A stretch of DNA of 42,823 nt from Accumulibacter sp. (lineage in GTDB: Bacteria; Pseudomonadota; Gammaproteobacteria; Burkholderiales; Rhodocyclaceae), in assembly GCA_020049495.1 (NCBI GenBank), contig JAIFKU010000029.1:1-42823 (forward strand), written 5' to 3'. Within the stretch, counting starts at the first letter, position 1. Each line of letters opens with the position of its first letter. Positions 16,442 through 26,178 of the stretch are shown in pieces. The notes beneath the pieces were generated by a model. It did not search any database. It saw only the letters and a list, made by a program, of their open reading frames with translations, and was not told where the DNA came from. A program made the position numbers and the translations under genes.

Positions 16442-17866
16442 TCAGAAATGCAGCGGGCGTTTGTCGCAGGCCAGCGCGGCTTCGTGCATCACTTCCGACA
16501 AGGTCGGGTGGGCGTGGCAAATGCGCGCGAGGTCTTCGCTTGCGGCGCCGAATTCCATCGCCACCACGGCCTCGGAAATCAGCTCCGAGGCGTTGGCGCC
16601 GATGATGTGCACACCCAGGATGCGGTCGCTCGTGGCGTCGGCCAGCATCTTGACAAAGCCCGTCGTCTCGCCCATGCCCAGAGCACGGCCATTGGCGGCG
16701 AAGGGAATTCTGCCCAGTTTGTAGGCGACGCCATCGGCTTTGAGTTGTTGCTCGGTCTTGCCGACCCAGGCGATTTCCGGGCTGGTATAGAGCACCCAGG
16801 GAATGGTGTCGAAATTGCAGTGCCCGGACTGACCGGCCATCAACTCGGCGACCATGACCGCCTCTTCCATCGCCTTGTGCGCCAGCATCGGGCCGGAAAC
16901 GACATCACCGACGGCCCACACGCCGGGCAGGTTGGTCCTGCAATGAGCATCAACGTCAATGCGGCCGCGCTCGTCGAGGCGGAGACCGACGACTTCGGCA
17001 TTCAGGCCGTCGGTGTTGGGGATGCGCCCGACCGAGACGATCAGGCGATCGGCTTCGAGTTTTTGCGCCTGGCCATGCTTGTCGTCATAGGTAATCGATA
17101 CGCCTTTCCTCGAAGCCTTGGCCTCGCCGATGGTCACCCCAAGCTGAATGTTCAGCCCCTGCCTGGCGAACACCCTGGCCGCCTCTTTGGCGACATCAAT
17201 GTCGGCGACCGAGAGAAATTCCGGCAGGGCTTCGAGGAGGGTCACTTCGGAACCGAGGCGACGCCAGACACTGCCCATCTCCAGACCGATCACGCCCGCG
17301 CCGATGATGGCCAGCTTCTTCGGCACGGCATCGATATCGAGGGCACCTTCATTGTCACAGACCAGTTTGTTGTCGACAGGCACACCCGGGAGGTGGCGCG
17401 CTTTCGAGCCGGTGGCAATGATGACCTGTTTGGCCTCGACGACCTCGTCACCCACCTTGACCTGCCAGCCGCCTTCACTGTGTGCGACAAATGAACCACG
17501 CCCATTGAGCAGCGTCACCTTGTTCTTCTTGAACAGTCCCTTGATGCCACCGGTCAGTTGATCGACGATGGTGTTCTTGCGGGCTATCATCGTCGGCACA
17601 TCGATCTTCGGAGTACTGACGCTAATGCCTTGCAGAGCGAAACTGTGTCCGGCTTCGGCAAAGAGATGCGAGGTGTGCAGCAGCGCTTTGGACGGAATGC
17701 AACCAACGTTCAGACAAGTACCGCCAAGACGCGGCTCATCCTTCGGATCGGCGTAAGGATTCGATTCGCAGCAGGCCACCGAAAAACCGAGCTGGGCGGC
17801 GCGGATAGCTGCCACGTAGCCGCCGGGGCCACCGCCGATAACGAGAACGTCAAATTGTTTGGACAT
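16442..17866 (-). CDS. lpd: Dihydrolipoyl dehydrogenase (E3)
   Basis: The 474-residue flavoprotein starts with the FAD-binding [21 protein letters not shown]. It has the redox-active disulfide [16 protein letters not shown] (about 45-60), the NAD-binding [16 protein letters not shown] (about 180-195) and the C-terminal catalytic [13 protein letters not shown]. It reoxidises dihydrolipoyl groups of the 2-oxoglutarate dehydrogenase complex. It is last in the block gltA-odhA-odhB-lpd, separated from odhB by 148 bases that contain a repeat. GAGG precedes the ATG by 8 bases. Confidence 0.97.
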
Positions 17867-18014: not shown

Positions 18015-19298
18015 CTAAACCCCGAGCAGCAGGCGCGCCGGGTCTTCCAGCGCTTCCTTCATCATCACCAGGCCGAGCACGGCTTCGCGGCCGTCGATGA
18101 TGCGGTGATCGTAGGACATGGCCAGATAGTTGATCGGACGAACCACCACCTGTCCGTCTTCAACAACGGCACGATCCTTGGTGGCATGTATGCCGAGGAT
18201 CGCCGACTGCGGCGGATTGATGATCGGCGTCGACAGCATCGAACCGAACACGCCTCCGTTGGAAATGGAGAAGGTGCCACCGGTCAGGTCTTCCATCGAC
18301 AGCTTGCCGTCCTTGGCCTTCTGGCCGAATTCACCGATCTTTTTCTCGATGTCAGCAATGCTCATCTGGTCCGCATCGCGCAGGATCGGCACGACTAGGC
18401 CGCGCGGGCTGCCCACGGCGACCCCGATGTCGATGTAGCCATGATAGACAATGTCGTTGCCGTCGACCGAGGCATTGATGATCGGGAACTTCTGCAGGGC
18501 AGCAACGGCGGCCTTGACGAAGAAGCCCATGAAACCGAGACGCACCCCGTGGGTCTTTTCGAATTTCTCGCCATACTGCTTGCGCATGGCCATCACCGGC
18601 GCCATGTTAACTTCATTGAAGGTGGTCAGGATGGCGTTGGTCGATTGCGACTGAACCAGCCGCTCGGCCACGCGGGCACGCAGTCGCGACATCGGCACGC
18701 GCTGTTCCGGACGCTCGCCGAGCGAAAGTGAAACGGTCGGCGCCGGTGCCAGCGCAATCGACGGCCTTGATGCTGAAGCGGGCGTTGCAGGTGCAGGTGA
18801 GGGAGTGGGTGCAGCAGCCACTACTTTATGCGCTACCGCCAAAGCATCTTCCTTGGTGATGCGGCCGCCACGACCGGTACCGGCCACCTCGGCGGCAGGA
18901 ACGCCTTTTTCATCGAGGATCTTGCGCGCCGCAGGCAGGGCGATGCCGGCTGCCGATGCGGCTAGCGCTGCGCTTCTGGCTTGCGGGCCGGAAGCGGGAG
19001 GTGGCGGAAGAGAGGGTTTCTCCCTGGCTGCCGGAACACTGGGTGCTACCGTGGCCTCGGCTTCGCTATCGATGCGGGCAATCAGTTCGCCAGCGGTTAC
19101 CGTGTCGCCGTTATTCTTGAGAATTTCAATCAGTACGCCGTGACCGGGTGCGGGCAACTCAAGAACGACCTTGTCGGTTTCGATATCGATCAGGTTCTCG
19201 TCTCGCGTAACGGACTCGCCGGCCTTTTTGTGCCAGGTCACCAGGGTCGCCTCGGCGACGGATTCAGACAGTTGCGGAACTTTGACATCGATGATCAT
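18015..19298 (-). CDS. odhB: 2-oxoglutarate dehydrogenase E2, dihydrolipoyl succinyltransferase
   Basis: The 427-residue E2 subunit has one N-terminal lipoyl domain (about 1-78, lipoyl lysine in ETDKVVLE), an Ala/Pro-rich linker, a peripheral subunit-binding domain (about 115-150; ALPAARKILDEKGV and GTGRGGRITKED), a second Ala/Pro linker, and the acyltransferase domain (about 200-427) with YDHRIIDGREAV. It transfers succinyl groups to CoA. The ATG at 19298 is preferred over the GTG at 19304 because GGAG lies 5 bases before it. It follows odhA after a 130-base spacer holding a GC-rich hairpin. Confidence 0.97.
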   Translation of the reverse strand: MIIDVKVPQLSESVAEATLVTWHKKAGESVTRDENLIDIETDKVVLELPAPGHGVLIEILKNNGDTVTAGELIARIDSEAEATVAPSVPAAREKPSLPPPPASGPQARSAALAASAAGIALPAARKILDEKGVPAAEVAGTGRGGRITKEDALAVAHKVVAAAPTPSPAPATPASASRPSIALAPAPTVSLSLGERPEQRVPMSRLRARVAERLVQSQSTNAILTTFNEVNMAPVMAMRKQYGEKFEKTHGVRLGFMGFFVKAAVAALQKFPIINASVDGNDIVYHGYIDIGVAVGSPRGLVVPILRDADQMSIADIEKKIGEFGQKAKDGKLSMEDLTGGTFSISNGGVFGSMLSTPIINPPQSAILGIHATKDRAVVEDGQVVVRPINYLAMSYDHRIIDGREAVLGLVMMKEALEDPARLLLGV

Positions 19299-19340
19299 GT
19301 TCACTCCGGATTAACATAAGGTCGCGCAAGCGACTCTCGA

Positions 19341-19428: not shown

Positions 19429-22269
19429 TTAAGCCAGTTTGTACTGTCCGATTTCGCCCAGTGCGGACTCTATCAGTGCTTTATGTTGTGCATTGTGCTT
19501 GCTGTAATAGCCAACCGCCGGTGACGCGGATGCCGGGCGTGACACTAGCAGCAGACGCTGTTTGTTGTTGAACGAGCGATCCAGATGCTGACGTGAGGCG
19601 ATCCAGTACCAGGCACCCTGGTTACGCGGCTCTTCCTGACACCAGACAATCTCGGTGGCCTTCGGATACTTCGCCATCTCGCCCTGGAAAGAGTCCTGCG
19701 GGAAAGGATAGAACTGCTCGAGTCGGGCAATGGCGATGTGGGTGATATTTTTCGCGCGACGCGCGGCAATGAGATCGTAATAAACCTTGCCGGAGCAGAA
19801 GATGACGCGCGTCACTTTCTTGCCGTCGATCGGATCGACTTCGCCGATCACCGGCTGGAAATGACCCTTGGAGATCTCATCCATGGTCGAGACGGCATCC
19901 TTGTGACGCAGCAGCGACTTCGGCGTGAAAACGATCAGCGGCTTGCGCTGTTTGCGTATGGCCTGACGACGCAACATGTGGAAAACCTGCGCCGGCGTCG
20001 AGGGCTGACAGACTTCCATGTTCCTCTCGGCGCACAACTGCATGAAGCGCTCGATACGCGCCGAGGAATGCTCAGGTCCCTGACCTTCGTATCCATGCGG
20101 TAACAGCAGGACGAGGCCACAGGCACGTCCCCACTTGGTTTCACCAGAAGCAATGAACTGATCGATGACCACTTGCGCACAATTGACGAAGTCGCCGAAC
20201 TGGGCTTCCCAGACCACGAGTTCGTACGGATTCGAGGTGGCGTAGCCGTATTCGAAGGCCAGCACCGCCTCTTCGGAAAGAACGGAGTCAAAGCACTGGA
20301 AGCTGGCCTGTTTTTCCTGCAGATTGGCTAGCGGATAATAGGTGCCTTCGTCCCAGTGCTCGCGCTTCTGATCGTGCAGCGCGGCGTGACGGTGAAAAAA
20401 GGTACTGCGTCCCACATCCTCGCCTGAAATGCGTACGCCATAACTGGAGACGAGCAGCGAGGCGTAGGCGAGGTTCTCGGCCATCCCCCAGTCGAAGGGA
20501 ACGCTACCCTGCCCCATCAGACGACGGTCATCGATGATTTTCTTGACCCGGTTGTGCAGGGTAAAGGTTTCGGGAATCGCCGTCAGCCGTTCGGAGAGCC
20601 GTTTGATCTCCTTGACCGGAACAGTCGTGTCGCAGTTCTCGACGTAGGCCTTGTTCAGGTAAGGCGTCCAGTCGATCATCAACGGATTGGTGTACCCCGC
20701 AATCACCGGGTTGTACAGCAACTCGCCGCGATCAAGATGGTCCCGGTAACTCTGGATCATGTCCTCCGGCCCGTCACCCGGCAATACACCTTCGGCCACC
20801 AGCTTGTCGGCGTAGATCTTGCGCGTTCCCGGATGCGCGGCAATCCGCTTGTACATCAGCGGCTGCGTGACCATCGGCTCATCCTGCTCGTTGTGACCGA
20901 GTTTGCGGAAACAGACAATGTCGATGACGACGTCCTTCCTGAACTCCTGCCGGTACTCGATGGCCAGGCGGGTCACCAGAGCCACCGCTTCAGGGTCATC
21001 GCCATTGACGTGGAAGATCGGTGCATTGGACATCTTGAAGATGTCGGTGCAGTAGATCGTCGAGCGCGAATCACGCGGATCGGAGGTGGTAAAACCGATC
21101 TGGTTGTTAACCACGATATGCACCGTACCGCCGGTACCATACCCACGGGTCTGGGCAAAGTTGAGCATTTCCTGATTCACACCCTGGCCGGCCACCGCGG
21201 CATCGCCATGAACCAGAACCGGCAGAACCTTCTCCTGCGAACCTGCACCGCGACGATGTTGACGTGAATAGACCGAGCCGGCGACCACCGGATTGACGAT
21301 CTCAAGGTGCGATGGATTGAAGGCCAGCGAAAGCTGGCACGGGCCGCCAGGCGTCGACACCGAAGACGAGTAACCGAGGTGGTACTTGACATCGCCCGAG
21401 GACAGATCCTGCGACTTCTTGCCTTCAAACTCGTCGAACAGCATCGCCGGTTCTTTGCCCAGCGTGTTGACCAAGACATTGAGGCGGCCTCGATGCGCCA
21501 TGCCGACAACGATGTCATCTACACCGGAACCTCCCGCAACCCGGAGCAGTTCGTCGAACGAGACGATCAGCGATTCACCGCCCTCGAGCGAAAAACGTTT
21601 CTGGCCGACGTAGCGGGTATGCAAATAACGCTCAAGGGTTTCAGCCGCTGTCAGGCGCTCAAGGAAACGCAGCTTCTGTGCGGCGGTATAGGTCCCCTTG
21701 GCACGAATCGGTTCGAGACGCGCCTGCAGCCAGCGCCGTTCGGCGGTGCTGTTGATATACATGTACTCCATGCCGATCGAGCCGCAATAAGTTTCCTTGA
21801 GGGCATCGAAAATCTGCCCGAAGGTAGCGCGTTCGGAGACCGCCTTGAACGAGCCCGCATTGAACGGGGTGTTGATATCGGCATCGGTCAGGCCGTAGTA
21901 AGTTGGCTCCAGTTCGGGGATTTCCGGACGCGTCTGTCGCTTGAGCGGGTCGAGATTGGCCCAGCGTGCGCCCTGTGTACGGTAGGCGCCGATCAGTTGC
22001 AGAACGCTGACCTGCTTCTTGTCATCAACCGGCACCGACGCCGTTGCCCGATAGCCGCCCCTCTTGGCCTGTTCGGCAAAGGCATTGACAATCTGCAAAT
22101 GCGGCACATCGCGAGCAACGGCACCGGGCAGTTGCGCCAGCCGGTCGAAATAATCCCGCCATTCACTAGGAACCGAAGCCGGATTATCAAGATAATTTTC
22201 GTAGAGATCCTCTACGAACGGGGCGTTGCCACCGAAGAGGTGAGATGTTCCGAACAACTGATTCATCAT
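19429..22269 (-). CDS. odhA: 2-oxoglutarate dehydrogenase E1 component
   Basis: The 946-residue thiamin-diphosphate enzyme has the short N-terminal segment (LFGGNAPFVEDLYENYLDNP) that anchors E1 to E2, then VGMAHRGRLNVLVN, the TPP/Mg region HGDAAVAGQGV with NNQIGFTT, and the C-terminal transketolase-like LLLPHGYEGQGPEHSSARIERF. The size fits E. coli SucA (933). The start is ATG 22269, with AGGT 6 bases upstream; a second ATG follows directly. It lies 110 bases after gltA, with a hairpin in the gap. It indicates an oxidative 2-oxoglutarate to succinyl-CoA step. Confidence 0.97.
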   Translation of the reverse strand: MMNQLFGTSHLFGGNAPFVEDLYENYLDNPASVPSEWRDYFDRLAQLPGAVARDVPHLQIVNAFAEQAKRGGYRATASVPVDDKKQVSVLQLIGAYRTQGARWANLDPLKRQTRPEIPELEPTYYGLTDADINTPFNAGSFKAVSERATFGQIFDALKETYCGSIGMEYMYINSTAERRWLQARLEPIRAKGTYTAAQKLRFLERLTAAETLERYLHTRYVGQKRFSLEGGESLIVSFDELLRVAGGSGVDDIVVGMAHRGRLNVLVNTLGKEPAMLFDEFEGKKSQDLSSGDVKYHLGYSSSVSTPGGPCQLSLAFNPSHLEIVNPVVAGSVYSRQHRRGAGSQEKVLPVLVHGDAAVAGQGVNQEMLNFAQTRGYGTGGTVHIVVNNQIGFTTSDPRDSRSTIYCTDIFKMSNAPIFHVNGDDPEAVALVTRLAIEYRQEFRKDVVIDIVCFRKLGHNEQDEPMVTQPLMYKRIAAHPGTRKIYADKLVAEGVLPGDGPEDMIQSYRDHLDRGELLYNPVIAGYTNPLMIDWTPYLNKAYVENCDTTVPVKEIKRLSERLTAIPETFTLHNRVKKIIDDRRLMGQGSVPFDWGMAENLAYASLLVSSYGVRISGEDVGRSTFFHRHAALHDQKREHWDEGTYYPLANLQEKQASFQCFDSVLSEEAVLAFEYGYATSNPYELVVWEAQFGDFVNCAQVVIDQFIASGETKWGRACGLVLLLPHGYEGQGPEHSSARIERFMQLCAERNMEVCQPSTPAQVFHMLRRQAIRKQRKPLIVFTPKSLLRHKDAVSTMDEISKGHFQPVIGEVDPIDGKKVTRVIFCSGKVYYDLIAARRAKNITHIAIARLEQFYPFPQDSFQGEMAKYPKATEIVWCQEEPRNQGAWYWIASRQHLDRSFNNKQRLLLVSRPASASPAVGYYSKHNAQHKALIESALGEIGQYKLA

Positions 22270-22343
22270 GGTATTACCTGTGGTCAGGGTTTCAGATGCA
22301 TGTAGCGAATAATCTGCTCGCAATTGTGGATCAGACCTGAAGG

Positions 22344-22379: not shown

Positions 22380-23681
22380 TCAGTCCTCGCGATGGTGTTC
22401 CGGCGGGACATCGCGCATCGGGGCACCGGTATAGAGTTGACGCGGGCGGCCGATCTTGTATTCCGGATCAGAAATCATTTCTTCCCACTGCACCATCCAG
22501 CCAACCGTGCGCGCCAGAGCGAAGATGCAGGTGAACATGGAGGTCGGAATGCCAATGGCTTTCTGCACGATACCGGAGTAGAAGTCGACGTTCGGGTAGA
22601 GCTTTTTCTCGATAAAGTAATCGTCTTCCAGTGCGATCTTTTCCAGTTCCATGGCCAGCATGAACAGACGGTCATTCTCCAGCCCCTGTTCCTTCAAGAC
22701 GTCAGCACAGATCTTGCGCATGATCTTGGCACGCGGATCGAAGTTCTTGTAGACACGGTGACCGAAACCCATCAGTTTGAAGCTGTCGTTCTTGTCCTTG
22801 GCCCGCTTGATATACTCGGGGACACGCGACACGTCACCGATTTCCTCAAGCATCTTGAGGCAGGCCTCATTGGCCCCGCCATGCGCCGGACCCCATAGGC
22901 AACCCATACCCGCAGAGATGCAGGCGTAGGGATTGGCACCGGATGAACCGGCCAGGCGGACGGTCGAGGTCGACGCATTCTGCTCGTGATCGGCATGCAG
23001 GGTAAAGATGGTATCCAGCGCATGCACCAGAACCGGGTTCGGCTCGTATCTCTCGCAGGGATTGCCGAACATCATGTGCATGAAGTTGGCGGTATAGCCA
23101 AGGTCATTGCGCGGATACATGAAGGGCTCACCCATCGAATACTTGTAGGCCAGCGCGACGATGGTCGGCAGTTTGGCCACGATGCGGTTGAAACTGATGT
23201 TGCGGTGCTTGGCGTCGGAAAAGTCTTCAGCTTCATGATAGAACGCTGACAAAGCTCCGACCACACCGACCATCACCGCCATCGGATGGGCGTCACGACG
23301 GAAGCCCTGATAGAACTTGGCCATCTGCTCGTGCACCATCGTGTGCTTCTTGATGATATTCACGAACTCGACTTTTTCCTCACCGTTTGGCAGTTCACCG
23401 TGCTTCAGCAGATAGGCCACATCAAGAAAGTTGCAATGCTCCGCCAATTGCTCGATCGGATAACCGCGGTACAGAAGCTCACCCTTGTCACCGTCGATGA
23501 ATGTAATCTTCGATTGGCATGCAGCAGTGGATAAAAATCCGGAATCGTAAGTAAACAAGCCGGTCTTGGCCGCCAGGGTTCGAACATCTATGCAGTCGTT
23601 GCCATGAATCGGCGTCATGATCGAAAACTCGACCGGGGCTTTTCCCTCGATAGTCAGTATTGCCTTGCGTTCAGTCGTCAT
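22380..23681 (-). CDS. gltA: Citrate synthase (type II)
   Basis: The 433-residue protein carries GltA signatures: an N-terminal domain ([47 protein letters not shown]), [19 protein letters not shown] with the catalytic histidine, [15 protein letters not shown] and [16 protein letters not shown], with the second catalytic residues in the C-terminal part. It condenses oxaloacetate with acetyl-CoA. GGAG precedes the ATG by 6 bases. It lies directly downstream of sdhE (69 bases), the normal betaproteobacterial order. Confidence 0.97.
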
Positions 23682-23750: not shown

Positions 23751-24005
23751 TTACTTTATTCTTACATTGCGCAGCATGGCCACGACTTCGGCCTGCAACG
23801 AATCCGCACACTCGCGCTTGCCGGTGATCAGAGGCCACAGTTCAAGATCTTCCATCTCCGCCAGTATTACGAATGCCGCTGCCTGCTCCGGCGTCAGGCT
23901 TGAGAAATGCTTCTCAAGAAAGCCTCCGAGCAGCAAATCCATCTCCAGTAGAGCGCGGTGCGTACAGCGCCAGCGCAAACGGTTCATTTCTGCGCTTGCT
24001 TCCAT
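23751..24005 (-). CDS. sdhE: SdhE-type flavinylation factor with altered RGxxE motif
   Basis: An 84-residue protein of the SdhE (YgfY/Sdh5) family: RLRWRC near the N-terminus, then EMDLLLGGFLEKHFSSLTPEQ and a C-terminal DLELWPLITGKRE. SdhE promotes covalent FAD attachment to SdhA and, in some bacteria, FrdA. The hallmark RGxxE reads RALLE here, so the conserved glycine is alanine, and one extra residue separates it from RWRC. Position before gltA is normal, but the gene just upstream is only an sdhC fragment, whose TGA overlaps this ATG (TGATG). A start at the second Met (residue 7, MNRLRWRC) is possible. Confidence 0.85.
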   Translation of the reverse strand: MEASAEMNRLRWRCTHRALLEMDLLLGGFLEKHFSSLTPEQAAAFVILAEMEDLELWPLITGKRECADSLQAEVVAMLRNVRIK

Positions 24006-24112
24006 CAGATTGCCGCGCCGCTGATGCGCTGAATGATCGACAGTATCCCCGGCAGAGGTAATCCGATCGTTATCAGTTCCGGATTATTAGGGCGTATTTT
24101 CTTGTAAGTCAT
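24005..24112 (-). pseudogene. sdhC: sdhC remnant: N-terminal 35 codons of the succinate dehydrogenase cytochrome b subunit
   Basis: The frame reads MTYKKIRPNNPELITIG then LPLPGILSIIQRISGAAI and stops. This matches the conserved SdhC start in betaproteobacteria (KKRP near the N-terminus, then LPLPGIVSILHRVSG), covering the quinone-site Ser and Arg but with the usual His replaced by Gln. Normal SdhC continues for about 90 more residues with three membrane helices; here it ends at TGA 24007-24005, which overlaps the sdhE ATG. The rest of sdhC and all of sdhD, sdhA and sdhB, normally found here, are absent. The simplest reading is an internal deletion joining early sdhC to the end of sdhB. The open frame extends further upstream (to 24220) without homology. 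Confidence 0.75.
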
Positions 24113-24135
24113 TTCTGGCACGAACACTATCCCTG

Positions 24136-24153
24136 TTGTTATTCGAATAACAA
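24136..24153. promoter_or_regulatory. 18-base perfect palindrome upstream of the sdhC remnant
   Basis: TTGTTATTCGAATAACAA is fully self-complementary and lies 23 bases before the remnant sdhC ATG. Its position is that of an operator or promoter element of the former sdh operon that now drives sdhE, gltA and odhA. Which regulator binds is unknown; it does not resemble the CTTATATAAG palindrome next to the GntR gene. Confidence 0.4.
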
Positions 24154-24241
24154 AACATGGCCGCTTCGACCGGCTTAACACTGTATAGTTCAAGCGACCG
24201 GAAGGCGAACCATTTATCAATGAAACAGGCCTCCCAGCGTA

Positions 24242-24982
24242 CTACCCCAGTTCATTGTGGTAGTGGAAATTCTGAGTCGAATAATAGCCTCGACGCCATT
24301 CCACCGGCTTGTCAGCATAGGTAAAGGTGACCCGCTCGACCAGCAGCAAGGGGCTTCCTTCGGCCACCTGCAGCAATTCCGAACTCACCCTGTCGGCAGA
24401 CACAGCGCGCAGACGCTCATCGGCACGAATCATGCGAACCCCGTAACGACTCTCGAACAGGCTGTAAAGAGAGCTTGTGCCTGACTTGAGAATATCCAGT
24501 GTCAGATCGGGAAACAATTCTCCCGGCAGATAGATCTCATCGAAAACAACCGGCTCATTAGCAAAGCACAACAGTCGGCGAACGATGATGATCGGCGCTC
24601 CCGGTTCGAGAGCGAGAGTACGGGCAACATCAGGTCCAGCCTTTGCCCGCCAGCATTCCAGAGGCACACTTTTCGAGGGCTGAAGTTCGCCTTCGTTGGC
24701 CGCAAGACGAAGGAAACGGAAAAAAGAACGCGGATCATTGTGCGTGGCGACGAAGGTGCCCTTGCCCTGACGGCGCACTAGGAGATTTTCGGCAGCCATC
24801 TCGTCGATCGCCTTGCGCACGGTGCCCTGACTCACGCCAAAGCGAATCGCCAGTTCCGACTCACTGGGTATAATATCACCCGGACCCCACTCGCCGGATT
24901 CAAGGCTGCGCGTGATCAGCGCTCTGATCTGCCGATAAAGCGGACTGAAAGTCGGTGAATGGAACGTTGATGGTTTGTTCAT
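24242..24982 (-). CDS. GntR-family (HutC/UTRA) transcriptional regulator
   Basis: A 246-residue regulator with an N-terminal winged helix-turn-helix (about 12-80; SESELAIRFGVSQGTVRKAIDEMA, QGKGTFVA) and a C-terminal UTRA ligand-binding domain (about 95-240; PIIIVRRLLCFANEPVVFDEIYLP, LLLVERVTFTYADKPVEW). It sits between the mdh gene, which diverges from it, and the sdh/gltA/odh block, which follows on the same strand. That is the position of the GntR regulator linked to TCA genes in other betaproteobacteria, so it probably controls them and itself. The ligand is unknown. No strong ribosome-binding site precedes the ATG. Confidence 0.9.
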   Translation of the reverse strand: MNKPSTFHSPTFSPLYRQIRALITRSLESGEWGPGDIIPSESELAIRFGVSQGTVRKAIDEMAAENLLVRRQGKGTFVATHNDPRSFFRFLRLAANEGELQPSKSVPLECWRAKAGPDVARTLALEPGAPIIIVRRLLCFANEPVVFDEIYLPGELFPDLTLDILKSGTSSLYSLFESRYGVRMIRADERLRAVSADRVSSELLQVAEGSPLLLVERVTFTYADKPVEWRRGYYSTQNFHYHNELG

Positions 24983-25191: not shown

Positions 25192-26178
25192 ATGTCCAAA
25201 GCCCCAGTTCGCGTCGCCGTTACCGGCGCCGCCGGCCAAATCGGTTACAGTCTGCTTTTCCGCATTGCCTCCGGCGAAATGCTCGGCAAAGAGCAGCCGG
25301 TCATTCTTCAACTGCTTGACCTGCCGCAAGCCCAGAAGGCCTGCCAGGGGGTCATGATGGAACTCGACGACTGCGCCTTCCCGCTGCTCGCCGGCATGCT
25401 CACCACGGATGATCCCAACGTTGCGTTCAAGGATGCCGATATCTGTCTGCTGGTTGGTGCCCGTCCCCGCGGCCCCGGCATGGAGCGTGCCGACCTGCTG
25501 ACCGCCAACGGTGCCATCTTCACCGTTCAGGGCAAAGCCATCGCCGAGAACGCCAAGGAACAAGTCAAGGTTCTGGTTGTCGGCAACCCGGCCAACACCA
25601 ATGCCTACATCGCCCGTTCCGCCGCGATCAAGGTTGGACGCACCAATCCGGCCAACTATCATGGCATGATCCGCCTCGATCATAACCGCGCGCTGTCGAT
25701 GGCCGCCGCCAAAGCCGGTCGCCCGGTATCCAGCCTGAAGAAAATGACCGTCTGGGGTAACCATAGCCCGTCGATGTACGCCGACTACCGCAATTGCACA
25801 TCCAACGGCGACAGTGTCAAGGCACTGATCAACGATCCGGTGTGGAATAACGATGTCTTCCTGCCGACTGTAGGCAAGCGCGGCGCGGCCATTATCGAAG
25901 CACGCGGTCTCTCATCTGCGGCGTCTGCGGCCAATGCCGCCATCGGTCACATTCGTGACTGGGTCAACGGTTCCGACGACTGGGTCACCATGGGCGTGCC
26001 GAGCGACGGTTCCTACGGCATCCCGGCCGGAATCGTGTTCGGGTTCCCCTGCGAATGCAAGGGCGGTTCCTACAAGATCATCCAGGGCATCGAAATCGAC
26101 GCCTACTCGCAAGAGAAAATCAGCAAGACGCTCAAGGAACTGACCGACGAGGCCGATGCGGTCAAGAGCATGCTCTAG
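25192..26178 (+). CDS. mdh: Malate dehydrogenase (NAD-dependent)
   Basis: A 328-residue malate dehydrogenase of the long type (about 325-330 residues): the NAD-binding start [37 protein letters not shown] with the substrate-binding arginines, [13 protein letters not shown], the Asp of RLDHNRA, and the catalytic histidine in [14 protein letters not shown]. It interconverts malate and oxaloacetate for the TCA cycle. The ATG at 25192 is chosen (CAGGAG upstream); the 33-codon upstream extension is leader and promoter. It is divergent from GntR and followed by a strong terminator. Confidence 0.97.

Follow-up and report, generated by a model that had tools for sequence, protein, structure and literature searches.

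How succinate is oxidized in an organism that encodes 2-oxoglutarate dehydrogenase and lacks the sdh genes at their expected place is the question raised by the locus described here. The window, that is, the whole stretch of DNA analyzed (42,823 nucleotides), is contig C113 of genome G000, an assembly of 3.46 Mb in 178 contigs that is 85.38% complete. A sequence-only reading of the window had proposed that only the start of sdhC remains between a GntR regulator gene and sdhE, where sdhCDAB normally lies, that its stop codon overlaps the start of sdhE, and that the genes downstream (sdhE, gltA, odhA, odhB, and lpd) and mdh are intact. The features of the locus are summarized in Table 1.

Table 1. 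Features of the former sdh locus and its surroundings in the window.
Feature	Position	Strand	Evidence
mdh, malate dehydrogenase	25192..26178	+	NF003916 529 bits, over cut-off
GntR/UTRA regulator	24242..24982	-	PF00392 E 1.7e-20, PF07702 E 5e-34
Old GntR-sdhC intergenic leader	24122..24241	-	aligned with six sdh-plus relatives
sdhC stub, stop TGA 24007-24005	24005..24121	-	PF01127 E 2.9e-4, under family cut-off
Deletion junction	24008..24020	-	alignments of stub with sdhC and sdhB of relatives
sdhE, FAD assembly factor	23751..24005	-	PF03937 (Sdh5) E 7.2e-22, over cut-off
gltA, citrate synthase	22380..23681	-	TIGR01798 747 bits, over cut-off
odhA, 2-oxoglutarate dehydrogenase E1	19429..22323	-	TIGR00239 1179 bits, stop-free
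odhB, E2 succinyltransferase	18015..19304	-	TIGR01347 533 bits, over cut-off
lpd, dihydrolipoyl dehydrogenase	16442..17866	-	TIGR01350 534 bits, over cut-off

The sdhC remnant and its junction

The family scores confirmed that the genes surrounding the gap are intact, the products of gltA, odhB, lpd, and mdh all passing their NCBIfam equivalog cut-offs, and the TGA of the stub does overlap the ATG of sdhE (24005-24003) in the sequence TGATG. The GntR gene forms the border of the sdh operon in relatives, while mdh, judged from its place in the same relatives, marks that locus on its other side in the ancestral arrangement.

The stub matched 32 of the 122 positions of the PF01127 (Sdh_cyt) model with 21.3 bits, a score kept below the 25.8-bit cut-off by the shortness of the piece. 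When its DNA was aligned with intact sdhC, a score of 132 was obtained (shuffle mean 22.2, with none of 200 shuffles as high), and the likeness to SdhC is not due to chance, in agreement with the original assignment. The alignment with sdhC from six sdh-plus genomes of the same genus runs from the start codon to approximately codon 33, and the N-terminal segment RPKNLDL..TIRLPLPGILSIxHRxSG of these relatives is recognizable in the stub, with R-to-G and H-to-Q among the changes. This alignment places the old sdhC start at the GTG at 24121, preceded by AGGGA in the old leader, where the six relatives have an ATG. The identification of an sdhC start was thereby upheld, and the length of the stub was refined to 38 codons from the 35 (24112-24005) counted from the ATG at 24112. 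A full-length SdhC membrane anchor over the family cut-off is absent from the locus, and the stub is a remnant, not an SdhC.

The last codons of the stub, Ala-Ile-stop, together with the TGATG overlap, match the sdhB of relatives, and the stub is probably an in-frame sdhC'-'sdhB fusion, as judged by comparison, with the sdhB end represented by only about ten bases whose score does not rise above shuffles (19, with 174 of 200 as high). An exact breakpoint cannot be set within the junction because the sdhC and sdhB sequences are alike there. Relative to G026, the missing DNA amounts to ~3.15 kb (L031 5789 to 8938). One internal deletion, as suggested earlier, is the simplest cause, since the operon of the relatives sits exactly in the gap and the stub aligns with sdhC as far as approximately codon 33.

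When codons 2-33 of the stub were compared with the six intact sdhC copies, dN was 0.17-0.22 (mean 0.20); among the intact copies themselves it is 0-0.095 (mean 0.06, 15 pairs). The corresponding dN/dS values are 0.17-0.32 and 0-0.18 (one pair not computable); covering 32 codons, the comparison is rough, and the dN/dS ranges touch. The raised dN fits a gene end under relaxed constraint and does not fit an assembly error that skipped an intact operon.

Ancestral gene order

An alignment of 10 rows, consisting of the GntR of the window and 9 of the 14 GntR sequences from relatives, was used to scan named genomes, and the best 80 of 567 loci were taken. In 73 of these 80, sdhC follows GntR, and six of the other seven loci end soon after GntR. 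The order mdh, GntR, sdhC, sdhA, sdhB, sdhE, gltA was found in Accumulibacter, Dechloromonas, Thauera, Aromatoleum, and Zoogloea, the search in named loci covering sdhC, sdhA, and sdhB among the sdhCDAB genes; sdhE was without a match in the Paraburkholderia and Burkholderia loci at the cut-off used. The GntR-sdhC order in the outgroups makes the missing operon the derived state. The named loci, together with the operon found in part of the genus (see below), thus bear out the order assumed as normal in the sequence-only reading. The seventh locus belongs to the soil MAG Proteobacteria CTSoil_125 (L184 4598-5370), where GntR is directly followed by gltA and no match to sdhC, sdhA, or sdhB was found; this is possibly a separate loss outside the genus.

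Distribution of SDH in the genus and the family

The genus sample comprised 28 genomes, including G000. Sdh_cyt proteins over the cut-off were identified in seven of these (G001, G006, G007, G010, G012, G025, and G026), six of them with paired neighboring matches corresponding to sdhC and sdhD, and the sdh operon occupies the gap between GntR and sdhE in seven of the 28. The remaining 21 genomes, that is, G000 and 20 of the 27 others, gave no Sdh_cyt match over the cut-off (hereafter sdh-minus). Absence of SDH thus appears to be shared with G000 by many of its close relatives. The sdhE gene was found in 26 of the 28 genomes, the exceptions being G008 and G018, and no sdhB match was present in the stretch fetched around sdhE in the 19 sdh-minus genomes that have this gene. 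Matches to Sdh_cyt below the cut-off occur in eight sdh-minus genomes. Those in G003, G004, G008, G009, G015, and G021 adjoin FrdB and were taken as FrdC, and that of G000 is the stub itself; the match in G023 (C250) scores 19.1 bits. In seven sdh-minus genomes (G004, G015, G013, G027, G019, G002, and G021; L040-L042, L044, L045, L028, and L029), GntR was not matched next to sdhE, and the gene matched next is mdh.

In the family sample, Sdh_cyt was detected at E 1e-6 in 184 of 199 genomes. Outside the genus, 11 of 193 family genomes were without Sdh_cyt, and FrdC was found in four of the 11. Some of the absences will be due to incomplete assembly. Absence of SDH is rare outside the genus and usual inside it.

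Number of losses

A four-protein tree was built from 32 of 36 rows (G020, G023, G024, and G025 were too short), with 10 outgroups from the best 80 of the 567 named loci, one of them of unknown sdh state; L122 was left out. The genus is sister to Accumulibacter in this tree, and all outgroups with a known state are sdh-plus. By tree position only, the genus is probably Propionivibrio, which has been described as a sister genus of Accumulibacter in passages of PMC13310139 and as a separate but related genus in passages of PMC9238405. G000 and G011 are sisters (97/96). The best tree needs two changes of state; the starred branches force only one, and one is sufficient in 40% of 200 bootstrap trees. 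A tree of the SDH proteins (16 rows) is broadly similar to the four-protein tree, with G026 placed together with G012 and G010 (92/91).

The case for repeated loss rests on the scars, since the starred branches and 40% of the bootstrap trees need only one change. Scars were searched for in 19 sdh-minus genomes, including G000. The end of sdhB survives in G009 over a length of approximately 35 to 58 bases; its score of 49 was reached by none of 200 shuffles. An sdhC start scoring above shuffles was not found there. The two scars thus differ, G000 having kept the start of sdhC and G009 the end of sdhB, and, as they stand, neither can be derived from the other. Both might still go back to one smaller deletion that widened in different ways in G000 and G009; more than one deletion history is likely, while the tree taken alone allows one. 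Near L037 2838-2900, the sdhB end of G009 reads AGGAGG just before the sdhE start.

In G011, a candidate worn sdhC start was identified. Its score of 26 to the stub was reached by 1 of 500 shuffles and its score of 31 to G007 by none of 300. Against G026, G012, G010, G006, and G001, however, it did not rise above shuffles (242, 208, 89, 78, and 40 of 300 as high, respectively), and in the wider scar test 4 of 200 shuffles scored as high. A stretch of the old leader is common to G000 and G011 (none of 500 shuffles as high). The sdhC start in G011 is doubtful, and the two genomes may share a deletion. Candidate sdhB ends in G004 (5 of 200 shuffles) and G003 (14 of 200) were discounted in view of the many tests made.

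Fumarate reductase

The suggestion that the organism may use a fumarate reductase was borne out by an frdABCD operon on contig C8 of G000 (L003 5250-8563). FrdA exceeds two equivalog cut-offs (NF006686, 1030.9 against 854; TIGR01176, 941.6 against 932.7), and FrdB also passes its own. FrdC is under the NCBIfam equivalog cut-off (100.6 of 143 bits) and over that of Pfam (142.4 vs. 24.2), while FrdD scores 140.7 over a cut-off of 60; both anchors follow FrdB in order. Against PDB sequences, FrdA gave 836 bits, over 594 residues, with FrdA of the E. coli FrdABCD quinol:fumarate reductase (1kf6), in which FrdB, FrdC, and FrdD have the same order, and 401 bits with E. coli SdhA. The motif RSHTVAAEGG, whose SHT histidine we take to be the site of covalent FAD attachment, is present in FrdA of G000; comparison of the motif across the genus was uninformative, the other Frd loci holding only the later part of frdA. 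A single Fer2_3 protein over the cut-off, the FrdB on C8, was found in G000, the one other match reaching only 12.8 bits. The genome-wide search thus yielded one complex II, and an E. coli-type FrdABCD is the only one found in this 85%-complete genome. With G000 at 85.4% completeness, the remainder of the genome might hold a second SDH.

Frd-type FrdB was identified in 26 of the 28 genus genomes, a count made up of 25 checked loci and the G010 match on C65. FrdC and FrdD accompany it in 24 of the 25 checked loci; in G011, the contig ends there. Frd was not found in G018 (59% complete), and in G025 (78% complete) the sole match was sdhB. The 12 sdh-minus genomes that are at least 90% complete have one Fer2_3 match each, of the Frd type in all 12. 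Like G000, many of its close relatives thus appear to depend on one fumarate reductase in place of SDH.

Respiration, the TCA cycle, and quinones

Besides 2-oxoglutarate dehydrogenase, G000 has kept the ccoN of a cbb3 oxidase. At least three PF00115 matches were found in six of the seven sdh-plus genomes (none in G025), and among the 21 sdh-minus genomes five have at least three, five have one or two, and 11 have none; PF00115 also includes NO reductases, and these counts are not counts of oxygen-using oxidases. Ten of the 45 PF00115 matches were fetched and scanned, giving five CtaD/CoxA, three ccoN, and two proteins without an NCBIfam name. The CtaD/CoxA matches reach 649-658 bits on the matched stretch alone, the whole-protein cut-off being 670.75. 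In the five sdh-minus genomes with at least three matches (G004, G005, G008, G013, and G014), the strongest one represents a cytochrome c oxidase subunit of the CtaD/CoxA kind, and ccoN was confirmed in G000, G004, G005, and G009. The PF00115 proteins at L215 (G009) and L217 (G010), without an NCBIfam name at E 1e-20, are perhaps NO reductases.

The odhA gene is present in all seven sdh-plus genomes and in 13 of the 21 sdh-minus genomes (that of G016 is split over two contigs), and it occurs together with at least one PF00115 match in eight of the 21, including G000. G004, G005, G008, G013, and G014, which combine odhA with a CtaD-type oxidase, are candidates for growing aerobically with Frd as their sole complex II. 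Loss of SDH goes together with an anaerobic trend in one part of the genus and not in the other. In the sdh-minus species outside this trend, Frd should carry the oxidation of succinate, probably with ubiquinone. In G000, no match to MqnA or MqnD and no menD over the cut-off (best 78.5 of 244.2 bits) was detected. As for rhodoquinone, rquA is described as sparse in Rhodocyclales (passages of PMC5953543), and the passages of PMC13310139 that mention this quinone concern ciliates and a reference title.

Retention of sdhE

The SdhE protein of the window scores 77.5 bits against the Sdh5 domain (Pfam cut-off of 27) and only 26 of 120 against NCBIfam NF008130. At what we take to be the position of the RGxxE motif it reads RALLE. 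The aligned SdhE rows have Ala, Ser, or Pro instead of Gly, and the replacement is not tied to SDH loss, since Ala is found in sdh-plus rows as well. In E. coli, SdhE flavinylates FrdA as well as SdhA.

The sdhE start lies inside the sdhB stop (TGATG) in six of the seven sdh-plus relatives. Ribosome-binding strength before sdhE ranges from -2.9 to -9.2 kcal/mol in these seven, averaging -5.0, and 13 other sdh-minus loci average -7.8 (Mann-Whitney p 0.03, uncorrected); the rows are related, two start codons are uncertain, and G000 was left out of this test. The comparison was made without G002, G020, G021, G023, and G024. In G009, the value is -10.3 kcal/mol, and its sdhE looks as if it had gained a ribosome-binding site of its own. 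The value for G000, -2.7 kcal/mol, is the weakest of the 21 loci. As sdhE in G000 is without a good ribosome-binding site of its own, the stub may serve as a coupled translated leader for sdhE, which we offer only as a weak lead resting on one genome and a slight trend.

Discussion

Taken together, the comparisons with relatives show that sdhCDAB was deleted from its ancestral place in this lineage, the first ~33 codons of sdhC being fused, as far as a few bases can tell, to the last bases of sdhB. The loss would have been tolerated because FrdABCD is encoded elsewhere in the genome, as it is in nearly all of the genus. This enzyme most likely oxidizes succinate in the presence of oxygen or another acceptor and, where none is available, reduces fumarate in the reductive branch, and SdhE would have been kept to serve FrdA, whose FAD must likewise be covalently bound. 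The stub might survive as a short leader whose translation is coupled to that of sdhE. The reading that combines loss of SDH, a FrdABCD working in both directions, and an SdhE kept for FrdA appears likely to us. Of the branched TCA cycle with 2-oxoglutarate dehydrogenase retained, as proposed in the sequence-only reading, the retention was confirmed, and a full cycle running through Frd fits the presence of this enzyme and of a cbb3 oxidase at least as well.

That the organism has sdhCDAB and the contig merely skipped over the operon is most improbable. G000 is fragmented into 178 contigs, which leaves room for such a collapse, but a collapsed intact gene would resemble the others, whereas the stub has GTG for ATG and a dN of 0.17-0.22. 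Moreover, neither an Sdh_cyt protein nor a second Fer2_3 protein over the cut-off occurs elsewhere in G000, and the sister G011, a separate assembly (70% complete), is also without both. It is very improbable, too, that the ancestor of the genus was without SDH, that some species gained it later, and that the stub represents a partial acquisition. The best tree needs only two changes, and change counts cannot tell gain from loss; later gain is nevertheless difficult to reconcile with outgroups that have the same gene order and border genes, with an SDH tree broadly like the species tree, and with the survival of one end of the operon in G000 and of the opposite end in G009.

An anaerobic life with an incomplete, two-branched TCA pathway, in which Frd would only reduce fumarate, has more in its favor and is still unlikely as an account of these genomes. 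No PF00115 match was found in 11 of the 21 sdh-minus genomes and no 2-oxoglutarate dehydrogenase E1 in eight of the 21, some of these genomes being incomplete, and the authors of PMC13310139, in the passages concerned, tie the reliance of a symbiont on Frd to hypoxic or anoxic conditions. On the other hand, E1 and at least one PF00115 match are found together in eight of the 21, G000 included, and the CtaD-type cytochrome c oxidase subunit in five of those eight makes a purely anaerobic life less likely.

Reliance on Frd after loss of SDH is already known as a kind. According to passages of PMC13310139, Ca. Accumulibacter symbioticus, a member of the sister genus, no longer has SDH after its loss and depends on fumarate reductase alone, an enzyme that the authors of that paper consider able to work in aerobic respiration. 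There, the loss is presented as belonging to the genome reduction of a symbiont that lives inside ciliate cells, whereas here it extends to most of a genus, in which sdh-minus genomes reach 4.8 Mb (G004), and the scar left by the deletion can be seen. Passages of PMC12604563 report transcription of frdABCD in Accumulibacter and frd in Propionivibrio. Ca. Propionivibrio aalborgensis has FRD in a pathway figure legend of PMC4930944, but, unlike the sdh-minus genomes, it is listed there with SDH as well (PROAA_v1_1090002-5). E. coli, with the same type of Frd, differs from G000 in having kept its Sdh_cyt proteins, as found in a control of the profile search. It also makes menaquinone. In the open-access literature searched, supplementary files aside, we met no description of a loss of SDH that runs through this genus, and the breadth of the loss and the scars are the new part.

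A wider statement can be made only tentatively, as a possibility that we would not yet expect to hold in all its parts: that SDH was lost more than once in the genus next to Accumulibacter, also in species with 2-oxoglutarate dehydrogenase and cytochrome c oxidases; that an E. coli-type Frd is the natural and only succinate dehydrogenase of respiring cells which, judged from G000, have no known route to menaquinone; and that one species keeps the start of sdhC as a leader for sdhE.

SDH is usually taken to be an invariable component of the TCA cycle, and the same holds for models of the phosphorus- and glycogen-accumulating bacteria that these genera contribute to wastewater communities. If most species of the genus studied here use only Frd, both the direction and the quinone coupling of the succinate step would differ. 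Reductive versus oxidative TCA flux would then, if this is true, be a property of each species for which this locus serves as an indicator, and the scars make the loss of SDH testable in any new genome.
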